A stretch of 64,000 bases of DNA from Acidilutibacter cellobiosedens (GTDB taxonomy: Bacteria; Bacillota; Clostridia; Tissierellales; Acidilutibacteraceae), in NCBI RefSeq assembly GCF_004103715.1, contig NZ_CP035282.1:1912673-1976672 (forward strand), given 5' to 3'. A program made the translations under genes and the position numbers. Of the stretch, positions 1,420 through 9,036 are shown one piece after another (the stretch's first letter is position 1; every line of letters starts with the position of its first letter). A model generated the notes under the pieces. It had not been told where the DNA came from and did not search any database. It saw nothing but the letters and a program-made list of their open reading frames with translations.

Positions 1420-3120
1420 CTAAGTAATTTTTTTAAATTTTTTTGACATTTCCAACATTTCCTTTGCGTGAAGCTTAGTTGTATCAGTTAAATTCACTCC
1501 ACCTAAAAGTCTCGACATTTCAGCTATTCTTTCCTCATAATTAAGTATTTTAACTTTTGTGCTTGTCCTCCCATTTACGATTTCTTTTTTTATAGAAAAA
1601 TGCGTATCAGCTAATGCGGCAATCTGAGGTAAATGAGAAATACATATTACTTGACGTCCTTTTGATATTTTATAAATCTTTTCTCCTACTATTTGTGCCG
1701 TTCTTCCGCTGATCCCAGCATCTATTTCATCAAAAATTAAACAAGGTATTCTGTCGTATTTTGCAATGACCGTTTTAAATGCAAGCATTATTCTTGACAT
1801 TTCTCCTCCGGAAACTATTTTTGATAATGGTTTCAATTCTTCTCCCAAATTAGTTGAAATTAAAAATTCAATTATATCAAATCCCTCTTCTCCATAATAC
1901 TTCATTTTTTTAAAATTTATTTTAAATATAGAATTTTTTATATTCAATGTATGAAGTTCCTTTGAAATATCCGATTCTAATTTTTTAGCTATTTTTTTTC
2001 TCATTTCCGATAAAATGGTTGAATTTTTATTTAGTTCATTTTCCGTTTCCTCTATTTTTTTATTTATTCTCTCTATTTCCTTTTCATTATTAATCAGTTG
2101 ATAAAGTCTTTCCGAGATACTGTTTTTATAATTAAGTATTTCCTCTAAACTGTTCCCATATTTTTTCTTTATTTTATATATGAGATTCAGCCTTTCTTCT
2201 AAAAATGCAAGCCTTTCTTCATCGAATTCGGTATTTTCAATATAATTTTTAAGTCCTCTTGAAATGTCCTGGATTTCAAAGTTTACATTTTCCAAAGCTG
2301 ATGAATATTGATTTAAATCTTCATCATATCTCTTTACCGAATTCATCAGACTTATACTCTTATTGATTCCATCCGATACGGAAATGCTGTTATAGTCTTC
2401 CGAATCCAGTATATTTATAATCTCTCCTACATTTAAGGAAATATTTTTAATATTGGACATTTTATTGTACTCATCATATACTTTCTTTTCTTCTCCATCA
2501 GAAAGTTTAGCACTATCTATCTCCTCTATTTCATATTTTAATAAATCTATTTCTCTATCCTTTTCTTTTGAATCAATTGAAAGCTTTTTAAGCTCTCCCT
2601 TTAAAGAAACAATTTGATTATATTCTTCACTGATTTTTTTCTTTAAAATATTAAATTTATCGTCGCCGAAATCATCTATCAACTTTATGTAACTTCCTAC
2701 ATTCAGCAGGGACTGATGTTCATGTTGACCATGAATATCAATTAATTTCTGTGTCACATCATTTAGGATATTTAATGTAACCGTTTGTCCATTTATTCTT
2801 GACACACTTCTTCCAGTTGAAAAGATTTCCCTTGATAAAAGAAGGGAGTTGTTATCTTCCTTTTCAATGCCGTACTTTTCAAGAATATCATCGATTTCTT
2901 TGGAATTCTCAATATAAAACAGTCCCTCCAATATTGCTCTGTCGCATCCTGTTCTGATCAAATCCTTATTAGCTCTACTCCCCAGAATTAAATTTATAGC
3001 ATCTACAACTATTGATTTTCCTGCTCCGGTTTCCCCGGTTATAACATTTAGCCCTTCAGAAAAATTAATCTTCAGGCTATCAATAATAGCAAAATTTTTA
3101 ATATTTAATTCAACAATCAT
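1420..3120 (-). CDS. recN: DNA repair protein RecN
   Basis: RecN is an SMC-like ATPase that binds DNA ends early in double-strand break repair. The 566-residue length is normal for the family. Walker A GETGAGKS is at residues 29-36, a long coiled-coil arm fills roughly 150-370, and the ABC signature VSGGE (436-440) and Walker B CLIFDE (about 460) form the C-terminal half of the ATPase head. The ATG at 3120 has an AGGAG ribosome site. The gene follows argR by 16 nt in the conserved argR-recN-spoIVB order. Confidence 0.97.
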   Translation of the reverse strand: MIVELNIKNFAIIDSLKINFSEGLNVITGETGAGKSIVVDAINLILGSRANKDLIRTGCDRAILEGLFYIENSKEIDDILEKYGIEKEDNNSLLLSREIFSTGRSVSRINGQTVTLNILNDVTQKLIDIHGQHEHQSLLNVGSYIKLIDDFGDDKFNILKKKISEEYNQIVSLKGELKKLSIDSKEKDREIDLLKYEIEEIDSAKLSDGEEKKVYDEYNKMSNIKNISLNVGEIINILDSEDYNSISVSDGINKSISLMNSVKRYDEDLNQYSSALENVNFEIQDISRGLKNYIENTEFDEERLAFLEERLNLIYKIKKKYGNSLEEILNYKNSISERLYQLINNEKEIERINKKIEETENELNKNSTILSEMRKKIAKKLESDISKELHTLNIKNSIFKINFKKMKYYGEEGFDIIEFLISTNLGEELKPLSKIVSGGEMSRIMLAFKTVIAKYDRIPCLIFDEIDAGISGRTAQIVGEKIYKISKGRQVICISHLPQIAALADTHFSIKKEIVNGRTSTKVKILNYEERIAEMSRLLGGVNLTDTTKLHAKEMLEMSKKFKKIT

Positions 3121-3136
3121 ATATTACTCCTCCAAT

Positions 3137-3589
3137 TTAATTAAGAAAACTGGTAAGTATTTTTAATACATAATCGGTTTTTTCCTCTTTTTCAATCGCA
3201 ACAAATATAGTATCATTTCCGGCAATAGAACCTGCTATTCCATCAATTTTAGCAGTATCTATTGCTGAAGCGCAAACTTGAGCTGCTCCCGGCAATGTTT
3301 TTATTATTATTATATTTTCGGCAACATTAAAATCGATTACTGAACTTTTAAAAATCTTTATAAGCCTTTCCGTAGTCCCTTCCTTGTTATCTTCCATTAA
3401 TGCATATTTGTATTTTCCATTCTTTGATAATACTTTTACAAGTCTTAGTTCTTTAATATCTCTGGATATAGTGGCCTGCGTTATATCAATTCCAGCCCTT
3501 TTCAAATAATTAGATAAATCTTCCTGGGTTTCTATTTCAAAATTTTCAATTAGTTCAAGAATTTTGCTTTGTCGCTGATACTTTTTCAT
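3137..3589 (-). CDS. argR: arginine repressor ArgR/AhrC
   Basis: This is the hexameric arginine-sensing regulator of arginine biosynthesis and catabolism. The 150-residue protein has an N-terminal winged helix with the recognition segment TQATISRDIKELRL and a C-terminal arginine-binding and oligomerisation domain (GAAQVCASAID, IAGNDTIFVA). The start chosen is the ATG at 3589, preceded by AAGGAGG at good spacing; an upstream in-frame start at 3619 has no such site. Linkage between tlyA and recN is conserved in Firmicutes. Note that the NAD kinase gene often found here in Clostridia is absent. Confidence 0.95.
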   Translation of the reverse strand: MKKYQRQSKILELIENFEIETQEDLSNYLKRAGIDITQATISRDIKELRLVKVLSKNGKYKYALMEDNKEGTTERLIKIFKSSVIDFNVAENIIIIKTLPGAAQVCASAIDTAKIDGIAGSIAGNDTIFVAIEKEEKTDYVLKILTSFLN

Positions 3590-3625
3590 GTTTGCCTCCT
3601 TCGTACAGAAATTAATCATAATATT

Positions 3626-4429
3626 TTATAATAATTTATGAGCAGATTTAATAACTTCCTTAATCCTGCTATTGTCTACAACCTCTTCTGTCTTCCATTC
3701 CTTTTTTATAAACGATAAATACTCTGTATTTCCTTCTTTCCCTTTTATGGGAGAATAAGTCAATCCGCACATACCCATTCCTATACTGTCACAATAATCT
3801 CTTAAGCCTATTATAACATTTTCATGAATTTTATAATCTCTGACTATACCTTTTTTGCCTACATTATTTTTTCCGGCTTCAAACTGAGGTTTTATAAGGG
3901 CTACCATTTCTCCCTCTCCTTTCAATAATTCTTTAACTACGGGAAGAACCAACCTAAGGGATATAAAAGACACATCTACGGATGCGAAATCTCCTTCTAC
4001 ATCTAAATCTTCTTTTTTTAGATATCTAATATTAGTCCTCTCTTTCACAATAACTTTGGGATTATTTCTTATCTTTAAATCAAGTTGTCCATAACCTACA
4101 TCTATGGCAACTACAATACCTGCTCCCTTTTGAAGCATACAATCCGTAAATCCTCCCGTAGAAGCTCCTATGTCTAAAGCCGACTTTCCCTTTAAAGTTA
4201 TATTAAATTCATTAATTGCCTTTTCAAGTTTAAAACCACCTCTTCCAACATAGACAAGAGGGTCTTTCTTAACTTCTATAACACTGTCTTCATCTATTTT
4301 TTCTCCTGGTTTATCTATTTTTTTTGTACCAACATATACCGATCCTTCTTTAATAATCTTCTTAGCCCTTTCTCGTGAGTCAGCAAATCCCTTTTCTGTC
4401 AGCAAAACGTCAATTCTTTTTTGTATCAT
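3626..4429 (-). CDS. tlyA: TlyA family rRNA 2'-O-methyltransferase
   Basis: TlyA-family enzymes methylate ribose 2'-OH groups in 16S and 23S rRNA; older annotations call them hemolysins. The 267-residue protein has an N-terminal S4 RNA-binding domain (about 1-60), then an RrmJ-type methyltransferase fold with the SAM motif DIGASTGGFTD at 86-96, the DVSFISL segment and the LIKPQFEAGK segment. The start has an AGGAG site. It lies between oapA and argR; in Bacillus the homologue is yqxC, next to dxs. Confidence 0.93.
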   Translation of the reverse strand: MIQKRIDVLLTEKGFADSRERAKKIIKEGSVYVGTKKIDKPGEKIDEDSVIEVKKDPLVYVGRGGFKLEKAINEFNITLKGKSALDIGASTGGFTDCMLQKGAGIVVAIDVGYGQLDLKIRNNPKVIVKERTNIRYLKKEDLDVEGDFASVDVSFISLRLVLPVVKELLKGEGEMVALIKPQFEAGKNNVGKKGIVRDYKIHENVIIGLRDYCDSIGMGMCGLTYSPIKGKEGNTEYLSFIKKEWKTEEVVDNSRIKEVIKSAHKLL

Positions 4430-4439
4430 AAAACCGCTC

Positions 4440-5054
4440 CTAATATTTATCAGCTTTTTTGTTATTCTTCTTTTTTAAATCTGGAAGAAAATTAATATGA
4501 AATTTCTCTTCCATAAATTTAAAAAACTTTGAAGTCTGAATTATTATGTTGTTTTTATATTTAATTGCTATTTCTTTCCCAAAAGCCTTGCCTCCTACGG
4601 TAAGAGCTGCTATCAAAGAAGTAAAAATAACGCTAAGCATTGTCCCCCGTTTTATACTATATATATCGATTAATTCATAAATAATTGTAGTTCCCACGGC
4701 ACCACTTATTATTCCACATATATCTCCTATTACATCATTACAAAAATTTGAAACCTGTCCCGCATTTCTTATCAATTTTATTGCATATACCGCCTCGTCG
4801 ACTTTATCTGCAGCCATGGAATGAAAGGGCTTTTCTATCGCGGAAGTAATGGCTACCCCTATTATGTCAAATATGATTCCAATAAGTATTATAATTACGA
4901 GGAGTAAAAAACCCAATATTATATTCAACTCTTTTAACAGACTTTCTGAAATCAAAGTAAAAAATACAGACATTCCAAAAGTCCATAACAATATAAAGGT
5001 AATCCATTTAGTATTAAATTCATTGGAAAAAAATTTTTTCCCTCTTTTCCCCAT
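4440..5054 (-). CDS. oapA: OLE-associated membrane protein OapA (CorB/DUF21-like)
   Basis: This is a 204-residue membrane protein with four predicted membrane segments (about 17-37, 45-72, 105-130 and 137-158) and a conserved cytosolic patch that includes AIKLIRNAGQVSNFCNDVIG. It resembles the transmembrane part of CNNM/CorB magnesium proteins but lacks CBS domains. Sequence type, length and position directly after a ~600-nt untranslated gene between ispA and tlyA match OapA, which binds OLE RNA at the membrane in extremophilic and anaerobic Firmicutes and is linked to ethanol, cold and Mg2+ tolerance. The start has GGAGG. The call rests on family resemblance plus context; a plain CorB-like annotation is the alternative. 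Confidence 0.85.
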   Translation of the reverse strand: MGKRGKKFFSNEFNTKWITFILLWTFGMSVFFTLISESLLKELNIILGFLLLVIIILIGIIFDIIGVAITSAIEKPFHSMAADKVDEAVYAIKLIRNAGQVSNFCNDVIGDICGIISGAVGTTIIYELIDIYSIKRGTMLSVIFTSLIAALTVGGKAFGKEIAIKYKNNIIIQTSKFFKFMEEKFHINFLPDLKKKNNKKADKY

Positions 5055-5080: not shown

Positions 5081-5108
5081 TAAAAAGCTGATAGCTCTTG
5101 CTATCAGC
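5081..5108 (-). terminator. intrinsic terminator at the 3' end of the OLE RNA
   Basis: A perfect 9-bp stem (5087-5095 with 5100-5108, loop of 4) is followed on the minus strand by five T. It sits between the untranslated RNA and oapA, so oapA depends on read-through or an unseen promoter. Confidence 0.85.
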
Positions 5109-5693
5109 CATAAAAGTGGCAGTATAATAGGTAAATTTTACGGCTTAAGGTCTAGTTGGATTTCCCAGATAGAAACTGCATGTCGCCATAACAGTGGTTT
5201 CCCTTTAATTCCATCTCTGCTCTGTTGCCAAAAGCAAGGCTAGATTACCATTTAGTCCGCACTGTAATCCCTAAAATACCTCTCATCTGAACAGTCTAGG
5301 AGTTTTCCTCTGACAGTCAGCCTATTTCTCAGCCTCTTTTGCAAATTAGGTTTCGATAACATAATTCTACACATTTTAGGCCTAAATCAGGTAGAATCGA
5401 ACTTATCATCCGCCTATTTCACTCAAGGCAGGCTACTATGCGGTAATTCAATTAAAACCACAAGTTTATCATGTCATAATTACTGTATAGTATTTATAAC
5501 AAGTCTCCACAAAGGCAGGGTCAACGCCTGCATGCCGTTGCAAGTCGCCCCATCCTTTTTACTCCCAGAAAAGACCCTCAACTGGGCGTCGAAAGCCTCA
5601 ACCAGGAACTTCATCGATATGCCCTTTAACGGATTTTTAGCCCCGTTTTCAAAAATAGCTGTACTGACTAGAATACTGTACCACTTCTTTGCC
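5087..5693 (-). ncRNA. ole: OLE RNA (ornate, large, extremophilic)
   Basis: About 607 nt of untranslated DNA, visibly richer in G and C than its surroundings, lie between ispA and oapA. It starts just below a consensus promoter and ends in an intrinsic terminator. OLE RNAs are about 600 nt and lie at this very place in the nusB-xseAB-ispA cluster next to oapA. Many short complementary segments are visible. A 71-codon reading frame at 5480-5695 has no ribosome site or recognisable protein and is regarded as chance. The RNA is known to form a membrane ribonucleoprotein with OapA. I could not align it to the Rfam model (RF01071), so identity rests on place, size and signals. Confidence 0.88.
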
Positions 5694-5699
5694 ATTTAA

Positions 5700-5728
5700 A
5701 TTATATCATAATAAAATTATATTTTCAA
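5700..5728 (-). promoter_or_regulatory. sigma-A promoter for OLE RNA
   Basis: TTGAAA (5723-5728) and TATAAT (5700-5705) are separated by 17 nt on the minus strand, placing transcription start near 5693. It lies between the ispA stop and the OLE RNA. Confidence 0.85.
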
Positions 5729-5739
5729 TAATAAAATGA

Positions 5740-6615
5740 TTATTTATTCCGCCCAGTTAAATAATATGCAAATTTTTCAAAAAATTTAGCTCTATTTCTG
5801 TCCTTATTCACAAAATATTTAACTATATTTATGGCATTATTGTCAAGTTCTTCAATTTCTTTTTTTGCCTCGTCAACGGTATGAAAAGATAAGTAAGTGG
5901 TTTTGGAATCATCTTCTCCGCTGTTATAGTCTAATACATCATCTTTAATTTGATAACTTACGCCAATAGCTAACCCGTACTCTTCTAATTTTTTTAATTC
6001 TTCTTCACCTGCTCCTCCGATTATTCCTCCGGAAATCAATGAGGCTTGAATTAAAGCGGCAGTTTTATTTTTATACATAAAAAAAAGCTCGTCTCTTTCA
6101 ATATTCTTTCCTTCCGATAATATATCAACTACCTGTCCTCCTACCATACCGTATATTCCTGAAGCATTTGCTATAACATTCATTGCTCTTACATACCTTC
6201 TGTAATCTTCTAATGTATGGCTTTTGTTAATAATATTTTCAGCCATGGTTTCATAGGCAAGATTTAAAAGACCGTCTCCTGCGAGTATTGCCAATGCATC
6301 TCCGAAAACTTTATGATTAGTAAGTTTCCCTCTTCTGTAATCATCGTTATCCATTGACGGCAGATCATCATGGATTAATGAATAAGTATGTATCATCTCT
6401 ATTGCCAATGCAAATGGTATTGCATCTTCATACTCTCCCTTAAAAAGCTCGCAACTTTCTAAAAGCAAAATAGGCCTTAATCTCTTTCCTCCCGTAAACA
6501 AACTATATTCCATAGCTTCTACAATCTTTTTCTGATAACTGCATTCTTTAATGACGTTTTTTAATTCTTTGTCTATAACTTCTTTCAAGTTATTCATCTC
6601 TTGTAATAAATCCAT
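5740..6615 (-). CDS. ispA: geranyl/farnesyl diphosphate synthase
   Basis: It condenses IPP with DMAPP and geranyl diphosphate to farnesyl diphosphate for isoprenoid synthesis. The 291-residue protein has the GGKRLRP motif at 42-48, the first aspartate-rich motif DDLPSMD at 83-89 and the second, DDVLD, near 220. The start has GGAGG. It follows xseB by 3 nt, the usual operon arrangement. dxs, which normally follows it, is not present here. Confidence 0.96.
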   Translation of the reverse strand: MDLLQEMNNLKEVIDKELKNVIKECSYQKKIVEAMEYSLFTGGKRLRPILLLESCELFKGEYEDAIPFALAIEMIHTYSLIHDDLPSMDNDDYRRGKLTNHKVFGDALAILAGDGLLNLAYETMAENIINKSHTLEDYRRYVRAMNVIANASGIYGMVGGQVVDILSEGKNIERDELFFMYKNKTAALIQASLISGGIIGGAGEEELKKLEEYGLAIGVSYQIKDDVLDYNSGEDDSKTTYLSFHTVDEAKKEIEELDNNAINIVKYFVNKDRNRAKFFEKFAYYLTGRNK

Positions 6616-6618
6616 TAA

Positions 6619-6855
6619 TTAGTCCTCCAAATAAAAATCATTCTCCAAAATATTTCCTTTATCATCTTTTAGTAATACTTTTACATCCCCTTCAACTTTA
6701 TTTAAAATATCAAAACAATATTTATAAAGTTCTACCCCTCTCTTGAAATTTTCAAAAGATTCTTCTAAGGTCAGATCTTTACTTTCCATTCTATCTACAA
6801 TATCCTTTAATTCCTGGAGGGCCTTTTCAAAAGACAATTCGTTATTTAAATTCAT
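6619..6855 (-). CDS. xseB: exodeoxyribonuclease VII small subunit
   Basis: This 78-residue protein is typical in length and contains the family core FEKALQELKDIVDRMES and LTLEESFENFKRG. It partners XseA in exonuclease VII, which degrades single-stranded DNA from both ends. The start has AAGGGG and overlaps the end of xseA by 14 nt, suggesting translational coupling. Confidence 0.96.
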   Translation of the reverse strand: MNLNNELSFEKALQELKDIVDRMESKDLTLEESFENFKRGVELYKYCFDILNKVEGDVKVLLKDDKGNILENDFYLED

Positions 6856-8068
6856 TTTTAAGTACCCCTTTTTGTATTTTTGCCACTTTTCCTTTTATCA
6901 TACCATCTTTTAATAAAACATTAAAGTTATCTCCGACTTTTATTTCTTCCACAGATTTTACTACCATTCCTTTATCATCATATATTACTCCATATCCCCT
7001 CTTTATAGATGACAAAGGGCTCAAAACATTCAGCTTATGCTTATATAAATCCAACTTGTTTTTTTCTTCCTTATACTTTGCCGTAAATAAAATATTTAAA
7101 TGTTTAAATATGCCATCCAAATACTGTTTATCATCATTGATGACATTTGCTGGATTAGAATTTTTAAGCCTTTTTCCCATATACTCCATCTGAACAAAAT
7201 TCCCCTTCATCACAGATAGAAAATTGGATTTTAAACTCTTATAGGAATTCTCCAGATCTTCTTTCAATAAACTCAATTTGGGAACAGCCAATTCTGCACC
7301 TGCTGAAGGAGTAGGAGCTCTTAAATCCGAAACAAAATCCGCAATAGTAAAATCTCTTTCATGGCCTACCGCTGAGATGACGGGAGTATTTAAATTATAA
7401 ATTATTCTTGCAAGGTTTTCATCATTAAAGGAAAACAGTTCCTCATAAGAACCTCCTCCTCTTCCCATAATAATTAAATCAATATCATTCCTTGAATCTA
7501 AGTACTTTAATCCTTCTATTACATTTGAAGCTGCATTTTCTCCCTGAACCAAAGACGGATATATTATAATGTCCGCAATGGGAAATCTTCTTTTAATTAC
7601 ATTTAAAATATCCTTTATTGCAGCTCCCGTAGATGAAGTAACTATTCCGATTTTTTTAGGAAAAGCAGGAATAGCTTTCTTATTTTCAATATTAAATAAA
7701 CCTTCTTTTTCTAATTTTAATTTTAAATTTTCAAAGGCTTCATATAATTCTCCGATTCCGTTTTTTTTGATATTTCTAACATATAACTGATAATCCCCAT
7801 CTCTTTCATAGACGGATATATATCCTAACGCTATAACTTTCATGCCGTCTTCCAAAGAAAAATTCAAGGATTGATTATCATTCTTAAACATTACACATTT
7901 TAGCTTTCCACTTTCATCCTTCAATGAAAAGTACATATGACCGCTGTAGTGATGTTTAAAATTAGAAATTTCCCCTTCTACACACACATTGCAAAGTATC
8001 GGGTCCCCTTGAAAAAGTCTTTTTATATAAAAATTTATTTCACTTACCTTTAAAGGTTTTATATCCAT
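6842..8068 (-). CDS. xseA: exodeoxyribonuclease VII large subunit
   Basis: This 408-residue catalytic subunit has an N-terminal OB fold (KVSEINFYIKRLF, VEGEISNFK) and the nuclease core with GIVTSSTGAAIKDIL, GRGGGSYEELFSFNDE and AVGHERDFTIADFVSD, followed by a coiled coil. The ATG at 8068 is preceded by GGGAG at 8 nt and is preferred to an upstream TTG at 8083. It begins 3 nt after the preceding gene ends. Confidence 0.96.
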   Translation of the reverse strand: MDIKPLKVSEINFYIKRLFQGDPILCNVCVEGEISNFKHHYSGHMYFSLKDESGKLKCVMFKNDNQSLNFSLEDGMKVIALGYISVYERDGDYQLYVRNIKKNGIGELYEAFENLKLKLEKEGLFNIENKKAIPAFPKKIGIVTSSTGAAIKDILNVIKRRFPIADIIIYPSLVQGENAASNVIEGLKYLDSRNDIDLIIMGRGGGSYEELFSFNDENLARIIYNLNTPVISAVGHERDFTIADFVSDLRAPTPSAGAELAVPKLSLLKEDLENSYKSLKSNFLSVMKGNFVQMEYMGKRLKNSNPANVINDDKQYLDGIFKHLNILFTAKYKEEKNKLDLYKHKLNVLSPLSSIKRGYGVIYDDKGMVVKSVEEIKVGDNFNVLLKDGMIKGKVAKIQKGVLKNEFK

Positions 8069-8070
8069 AT

Positions 8071-9036
8071 TTATATCTCCCAAACATGACCCTTTTTTAT
8101 TCTCCCAAGGTTTGCCATTCCTACTCCGTTATCAGTACATATATCGGTATTGGGAAAATAACATTCAATATCATTATAATTTAAGCCTTTTAGAAGTTCA
8201 TCCCTGATTATTGAATTAGATGAAACGCCTCCAATAAACAAAATATATTTTACATCGTATAAATAGGAGGCTTCTAAAACAATTCTAATAATAAATTGTG
8301 AAATACAATAGAATAGGGTATTAGCAATATCTTCCCTATAATATATATTCTCGCCGTAAATTTTTTTAAAATAATTTTCCATTCCGGAAAAATTGGCCCA
8401 TGTGCCATGAGTACTCATCGGTAACTTAAGATTTATCCTCTTTCCTTTTTGAGAAATATAATCCAATTCCCTCCCACAAGGAAACCTAATTCCCATTGCC
8501 ACTCCTATTCTATCGATAAGTTGTCCTATATTTAAGTCTTTTGTCCCACCAATTATATTAATATCAAAATTATCTTTCTCATTGTCAATTAATAACAATT
8601 CGGTAGTTCCGCCTGACAGGTGAAAGGCAAGAAATCTTTTTTCATCTTCTAAAGGACTATTTAACATTCCCGAACTTATATGCCCTTCCTGATGGCTAAA
8701 CTGTTTTAAAGGTTTCTTCAATATGGAAGAAAGAATAAATGCCTGTCCTTTTCCTACTTGAAATACAGGCATGTATGAATCCTTAACTGTTCTTGGAGCT
8801 ACACTTACGGATATAGTATTAATATTTCCCGGATCAATTATATTTGAAAGCTTATCGATCATTAGAGGTAAATTTTTCATATGCTGAAAAATTGCATCTT
8901 GTTGTCTCAACCCAACTTGATTTTTCTTCACTTCAAGTATCTTTCTTAAATCAATCAACGTGTTTCCTCCAGCGTCAATAACAGCCAAAGATGTAGTATA
9001 ATTACTGGTATCAATTCCAACATAATATTTATCCAT
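8071..9036 (-). CDS. TsaD/Kae1-type ASKHA paralogue (peptidase M22 family)
   Basis: This 321-residue protein belongs to the TsaD/Kae1 family (tRNA t6A synthesis) but is a divergent paralogue common in the nusB-xseA interval of Clostridia. It starts with the phosphate-binding GIDTSNYTTS, has the metal-binding HxxxH as H115-H119, and a C-terminal DNGVGMANLG that supplies the third ligand, so the nucleotide and metal site looks intact. The start has GGAG. Its job is not established; the true tsaD is expected elsewhere in the genome. It is translationally packed between nusB and xseA. Confidence 0.8.
   Translation of the reverse strand: MDKYYVGIDTSNYTTSLAVIDAGGNTLIDLRKILEVKKNQVGLRQQDAIFQHMKNLPLMIDKLSNIIDPGNINTISVSVAPRTVKDSYMPVFQVGKGQAFILSSILKKPLKQFSHQEGHISSGMLNSPLEDEKRFLAFHLSGGTTELLLIDNEKDNFDINIIGGTKDLNIGQLIDRIGVAMGIRFPCGRELDYISQKGKRINLKLPMSTHGTWANFSGMENYFKKIYGENIYYREDIANTLFYCISQFIIRIVLEASYLYDVKYILFIGGVSSNSIIRDELLKGLNYNDIECYFPNTDICTDNGVGMANLGRIKKGHVWEI

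Follow-up and report, generated by a model that had tools for sequence, protein, structure and literature searches.

A full-length OLE RNA gene of Acidilutibacter cellobiosedens with its own promoter and a sequence-conserved terminator hairpin in front of oapA

The 64,000-nucleotide stretch of Acidilutibacter cellobiosedens DNA analysed here (hereafter, the window) harbours on its minus strand a canonical full-length OLE RNA gene which, to judge from the identity of the RNA, the conservation of its promoter and terminator, the gene order and the homologues of three partner proteins encoded in the genome, very probably forms a transcription unit of its own, with partial termination at a 3' hairpin, expression of oapA by read-through and assembly of the products into an OLE complex. 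OLE ranks among the largest of the structured bacterial RNAs for which, to our knowledge, no biochemical function has been established. Its gene is genomically associated with oapA, usually its immediate downstream neighbour.

A covariance-model search of the window with the Rfam OLE family (RF01071) produced a match at 5700..5100 (-) of 471.8 bits (E = 2.5e-135; gathering score 50), the only Rfam hit above gathering score in the window. The 601-nt match aligned over all the positions of the model (1-616), which assigned the gene to the full-length class and not to the shortened variants 1 or 2; the two hairpins in the middle of OLE (about 5500-5440) were present, but shorter and weaker than the consensus. 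A preliminary description of this DNA had taken the segment for an OLE RNA gene, and the search confirmed this assignment over the whole model. The gene had also been placed correctly, with its strand left unstated, and the size then given to the RNA (~607 nt) was close to the roughly 610-615 nt predicted here (about 5693 to about 5079). Among sense-strand open reading frames of at least 60 aa, the OLE RNA contained one, of 71 aa (5695..5480), for which a Pfam search returned no match, and a protein encoded in the OLE region was rejected for lack of such a family. The gene was single-copy in the genome (3.74 Mb, one contig). A split OLE gene, seen in Clostridium sp. Cult1/Cult2-like genomes with matches 2.3 Mb apart in one of them (G062, L149/L150), was put down to faulty assembly: in that genome the OLE 5' half runs into a row of 10 Ns, and in its sister genome (G068, L151/L152) the two halves stop at contig ends whose sequences overlap. 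G062 also has a molybdenum/tungsten riboswitch (RF01055; L149 6344-6463) close to its displaced OLE half.

All the genes around OLE lie on the same strand. Upstream are xseA (6842-8083, named by position and sequence), xseB (6619-6855) and the farnesyl diphosphate synthase gene ispA (5740..6615), whose stop codon lies about 12 nt before the -35 box of OLE; downstream, oapA (4440..5054) is followed by a tlyA-type rRNA methyltransferase gene (3626..4429), the arginine repressor gene argR (3137..3619) and, in the same cluster, recN (1420..3120). The flanks were therefore as first described, with ispA on one side and the gene for a CorB-like membrane protein, oapA, on the other, and OLE gene neighbourhoods of this kind have been reported previously (PMC12265935). 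Some other OLE loci (e.g. L138, by eye) carry a dxs-like gene between oapA and tlyA, which is absent here (window 4430-4440).

Directly behind the ispA stop, a sigma-A-type promoter was found at 5728..5700 (-), composed of TTGAAA (5728-5723), a 17-nt spacer and TATAAT (5705-5700), with 11 of 12 consensus matches and the TG of an extended -10. In a scan of 7 kb, promoter-like sites were as frequent as expected by chance (33 found, 31.6 expected from shuffled sequence), so the motif scan by itself was not significant, and the promoter was judged real because of its position and conservation. For the latter, we compared the sequences flanking 168 full-length, non-identical OLE genes (44 of the same order, 58 of named relatives and 66 of other members of the phylum). 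A promoter score of at least 10/12 was found at the OLE 5' end in 38/44 genes of the order, 42/58 of the named relatives and 39/64 of the rest of the phylum, compared with 4-6% of shuffled OLE flanks, and the consensus TTGAA...TATG.TATAAT was visible in the OLE flanks, that of Halalkalibacterium halodurans (L134) included. The ole gene of H. halodurans has already been described as having its own promoter and belonging to a large operon (PMC9723947). As far as these flanks tell, a private promoter is a general property of OLE genes, with counterparts across the phylum. The TTGAAA-17-TATAAT element of the preliminary description was thereby upheld. In the same kind of motif scan the stretch between ispA and OLE showed no terminator, which means that OLE RNA should also arise by read-through from the upstream operon; the earlier statement that the RNA can be made apart from the housekeeping operon was accordingly right as to the private promoter and incomplete as to this second source.

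At the other end of the gene, an intrinsic terminator hairpin occupies 5109..5086 (-) and occurs once in the genome: GGCTGATAGC-AAGA-GCTATCAGCT forms a perfect 10-bp stem with a loop of 4 nt and is followed by the U-tract TTTTATTT (-15.9 kcal/mol, z -4.7), which is interrupted (TTTTTATTT). The sequence thus has the composition of an intrinsic terminator, a stable GC-containing hairpin and then a U-tract. Terminator-like sites in the 7-kb scan were again at chance level (3 found, 2.6 expected from shuffled sequence), and this one was judged real because of its position and its conservation across relatives. When an adjacent terminator was defined as a hairpin with a U-tract no more than 12 nt from the OLE 3' end, it was present in 35/44 OLE genes of the order, 26/58 of the named relatives and 0/66 of the rest of the phylum, with 0 in shuffled sequences, which bore out the terminator first noticed behind the gene. 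The named relatives possessing one were Tissierellales plus Natronincola-, Anaerovirgula- and Alkaliphilus-type clostridia, and a U-rich tract stood behind the hairpin in nearly all the relatives that have it. In nearly all OLE genes of the rest of the phylum, H. halodurans too, a short linker leads to the oapA ribosome-binding site. On this sampling, the adjacent terminator is specific to Tissierellales and some relatives, most OLE genes sampled elsewhere being without one. The conserved hairpin is also missing in 8/44 OLE genes of the order, mainly in one family plus single cases, and so is not essential for OLE. The Rfam OLE model does not include it, and the literature searched, which did not cover all early H. 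halodurans OLE papers, did not mention any conserved terminator hairpin of OLE. The OLE RNA, its association with oapA and, in H. halodurans, its own promoter were known; the conserved terminator hairpin is apparently new.

The 204-aa product of oapA shared 46% identity with H. halodurans OapA over 180 residues (E = 6e-54) and carried the DxxxD motif (D107-V-I-G-D111), invariant in 30 sequences, which identified it as the OapA homologue that had been proposed; its closest named loci were mostly from Tissierellia/Tissierellales. The motif is specific to OapA and absent from CNNM domains (PMC11332333). An AlphaFold model of the protein (pLDDT 82) matched the CNNM/CorB structure 7m1t with Z 13.6 and an rmsd of 2.5 over 133 residues, and four CNNM chains (CorB/CorC) matched it at Z 12-13.6, the next match scoring 8.3. 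A Pfam search revealed neither CNNM at E<=0.001 nor further domains, and a direct profile search against PDB sequences gave no meaningful match, so that the relation to CNNM proteins was seen by fold comparison alone. The earlier wording, a CorB-like membrane protein, is therefore correct at the level of the modelled fold. Of the remaining partners, an OapB homologue is encoded between adk and infA (L147 9818-10159; match to PDB 7k9b, E = 1.5e-11) and a YbxF/OapC homologue of the L7Ae type between rpoC and rpsL (L148 3017-3280; match to 4lck, E = 2e-11), so that homologues of both further components of the OLE ribonucleoprotein are encoded in the genome. The genome also encodes a CNNM (MpfA-like) protein of 434 aa (G000:C1:1296120-1296701, L146), which here coexists with OLE; MpfA is reportedly anticorrelated with OLE.

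The oapA start codon (ATG) lies 31 nt past the terminator stem and is preceded by TTGGAGG. At 60 loci, oapA began a median of 42 nt after the stem core (33 nt in the window), and a Shine-Dalgarno sequence preceded it in 58 of them. That oapA has a promoter of its own downstream of the terminator was rejected, as most loci are too tightly spaced there to hold one. The best promoter scores in the region taking in the terminator were mostly 7-9/12, and motifs of this kind may represent a weak promoter for oapA that overlaps the end of the OLE gene. Because in most loci a promoter would hardly fit behind the terminator, read-through is the simplest route to oapA expression and probably the one used. 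A single mRNA is translated many times, and the earlier conclusion that the terminator would keep OapA protein at a much lower level was overstated, as it implies fewer oapA mRNAs and not necessarily much less protein. Binding of OapA to OLE has been reported at a 2:1 ratio (PMC12286853, PMC11332333). Given this ratio and repeated translation of each mRNA, partial termination is compatible with a balanced supply of RNA and protein, and assembly in balanced amounts may in fact call for less oapA mRNA.

From these elements we infer the 5' and 3' ends of the RNA, partial termination and assembly of the complex as follows. The sigma-A promoter with its extended -10 would start OLE RNA at about 5693, and read-through from xseA-xseB-ispA would add to it. 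The majority of polymerases would halt at the hairpin (5109-5086), releasing an RNA of about 610-615 nt with the hairpin as its 3' end, and the remaining ones would continue into oapA, whose start lies 31 nt on behind a Shine-Dalgarno sequence and which lacks an evident promoter of its own. The terminator would thereby set the ratio of OLE RNA to oapA mRNA, and OLE RNA would assemble with OapA, OapB and OapC into the membrane OLE complex, as known from H. halodurans.

Conservation of the hairpin extended to its sequence. The stem GCUGAUAGC/GCUAUCAGC was nearly frozen across families and, in 63 loci, GCTGATAGC/GCTATCAGC was nearly invariant, with changes consisting mostly of G-T wobbles, although these loci had been selected with the stem pattern and the count is circular by itself. 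An unbiased check was provided by an alignment of 35 genes of the order chosen solely for having any adjacent terminator, in which the stem was as conserved as the OLE core tracts, and linker, loop and tail were not. Mean pairwise stem similarity within the order was 0.86 for OLE, compared with 0.47 for tmRNA terminators and 0.44 for those of RNase P, the latter a rougher control based on RF00011 matches under the curated cut-off with approximate 3' ends. The exact hairpin was found at most once per genome of the order, in 42/68 genomes with OLE and 1/82 without it; 42 of the 43 hairpin-bearing genomes thus have OLE (Fisher p about 5e-18, not corrected for relatedness). The sole exception, G145, shows the order xseA-xseB-ispA, hairpin, tlyA, recN, with both OLE and oapA missing and the hairpin at 2460 between ispA and tlyA (L155 2384-2727); it appears to be the remnant of a jointly lost OLE-oapA pair, and the segment before the hairpin contains a TATAAT, perhaps an old -10 box. 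The hairpin can also serve to locate the ends of OLE genes and what is left of lost ones. One family (L089, L096, L197 and L206) has an alternative pairing, in which the terminator's 3' arm can join a segment further downstream in a hairpin exceeding 20 bp, ahead of oapA. In L197 and L206 a change in the arm is accompanied by a matching change in that segment, a hint of a switch confined to this family.

A plain terminator, its similarity due to inheritance with the gene and to little time to change, is a possible if somewhat doubtful explanation for the frozen stem. The hairpin works on paper as a terminator and is confined to one order and its neighbours, but the terminators of tmRNA and RNase P have drifted far apart in sequence within that order, and linker, loop and tail are unconserved while the stem is as well conserved as the OLE core tracts. 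This pattern suggests that the hairpin also has a sequence-specific role, for instance as a 3'-end domain binding a partner. In a more tentative form, with the odds against it, the GCUGAUAGC/GCUAUCAGC hairpin would be an extra sequence-specific 3'-terminal domain of OLE in Tissierellales and neighbouring clostridia, a terminator and at the same time a sensor or binding site coupling OLE output to oapA read-through; if true, the OLE gene would be a self-balancing RNA-protein operon.

It is rather unlikely that the hairpin works as a conditional attenuator, with OLE folding, or OapA or another partner on the stem, altering read-through and thus coupling OLE and OapA by feedback. The stem is conserved beyond what base pairing demands, oapA follows immediately behind it without an evident promoter, and in the family mentioned above the 3' arm can switch to a longer hairpin downstream, which has changed along with it. 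No conserved anti-terminator partner was found within OLE, and we know of no protein that binds the OLE terminator stem, both of which count against an attenuator. Complements of the 5' arm inside OLE, considered as a candidate anti-terminator, clustered in 21/63 compared with 17/63 for a reversed-arm control, and the candidate was discarded.

Still less probable is that the hairpin serves mainly for 3'-end processing or stability within a long ispA-OLE-oapA transcript, termination being minor. The ole gene of H. halodurans is embedded in a large operon and its RNA is presumed to be processed (PMC9723947); such post-transcriptional processing could define the OLE 3' end here instead of termination, in keeping with the lack of a detected terminator between ispA and OLE. 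A processing hairpin needs no U-rich tract, though, and nearly all relatives retain one behind the hairpin; besides, OLE has its own promoter. Finally, a palindromic DNA element at the OLE-oapA junction (a protein binding or recombination site) would account for the conservation of both arms and for the persistence of the hairpin in G145, where OLE and oapA are gone, but it is highly improbable, since one-arm changes giving G-T wobbles are tolerated, as RNA pairing predicts, and the element is never repeated within a genome and is nearly confined to genomes with OLE.

Termination at the hairpin with read-through into oapA is our preferred reading. The locus can be compared with several known systems. 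As in the MpfA/CorB/CNNM Mg2+ transporters, the OapA model has a CNNM transmembrane fold (Z 12-13.6), whereas OapA here consists of a single membrane domain with DxxxD and without a CNNM Pfam match at E<=0.001. With the other OLE genes of Tissierellales and of Natronincola/Alkaliphilus type (L001-L031 and part of L063-L114) it shares the promoter, the GCTGATAGC/GCTATCAGC terminator and the place of oapA, and differs from them in sequence divergence only, loop and linker being variable. The 3' domain of OLE is reportedly unresolved in cryo-EM, and this promoter-to-terminator clade gives defined RNA ends for structural work. Like H. halodurans OLE (RF01071), the gene specifies the full-length fold directly before oapA, has its own promoter with an extended -10, and is found in a genome encoding OapA, OapB and OapC homologues. 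Unlike in H. halodurans, where none was found, a terminator hairpin here parts OLE from oapA, and through this hairpin the setting of the OLE RNA to OapA ratio can be tested directly.
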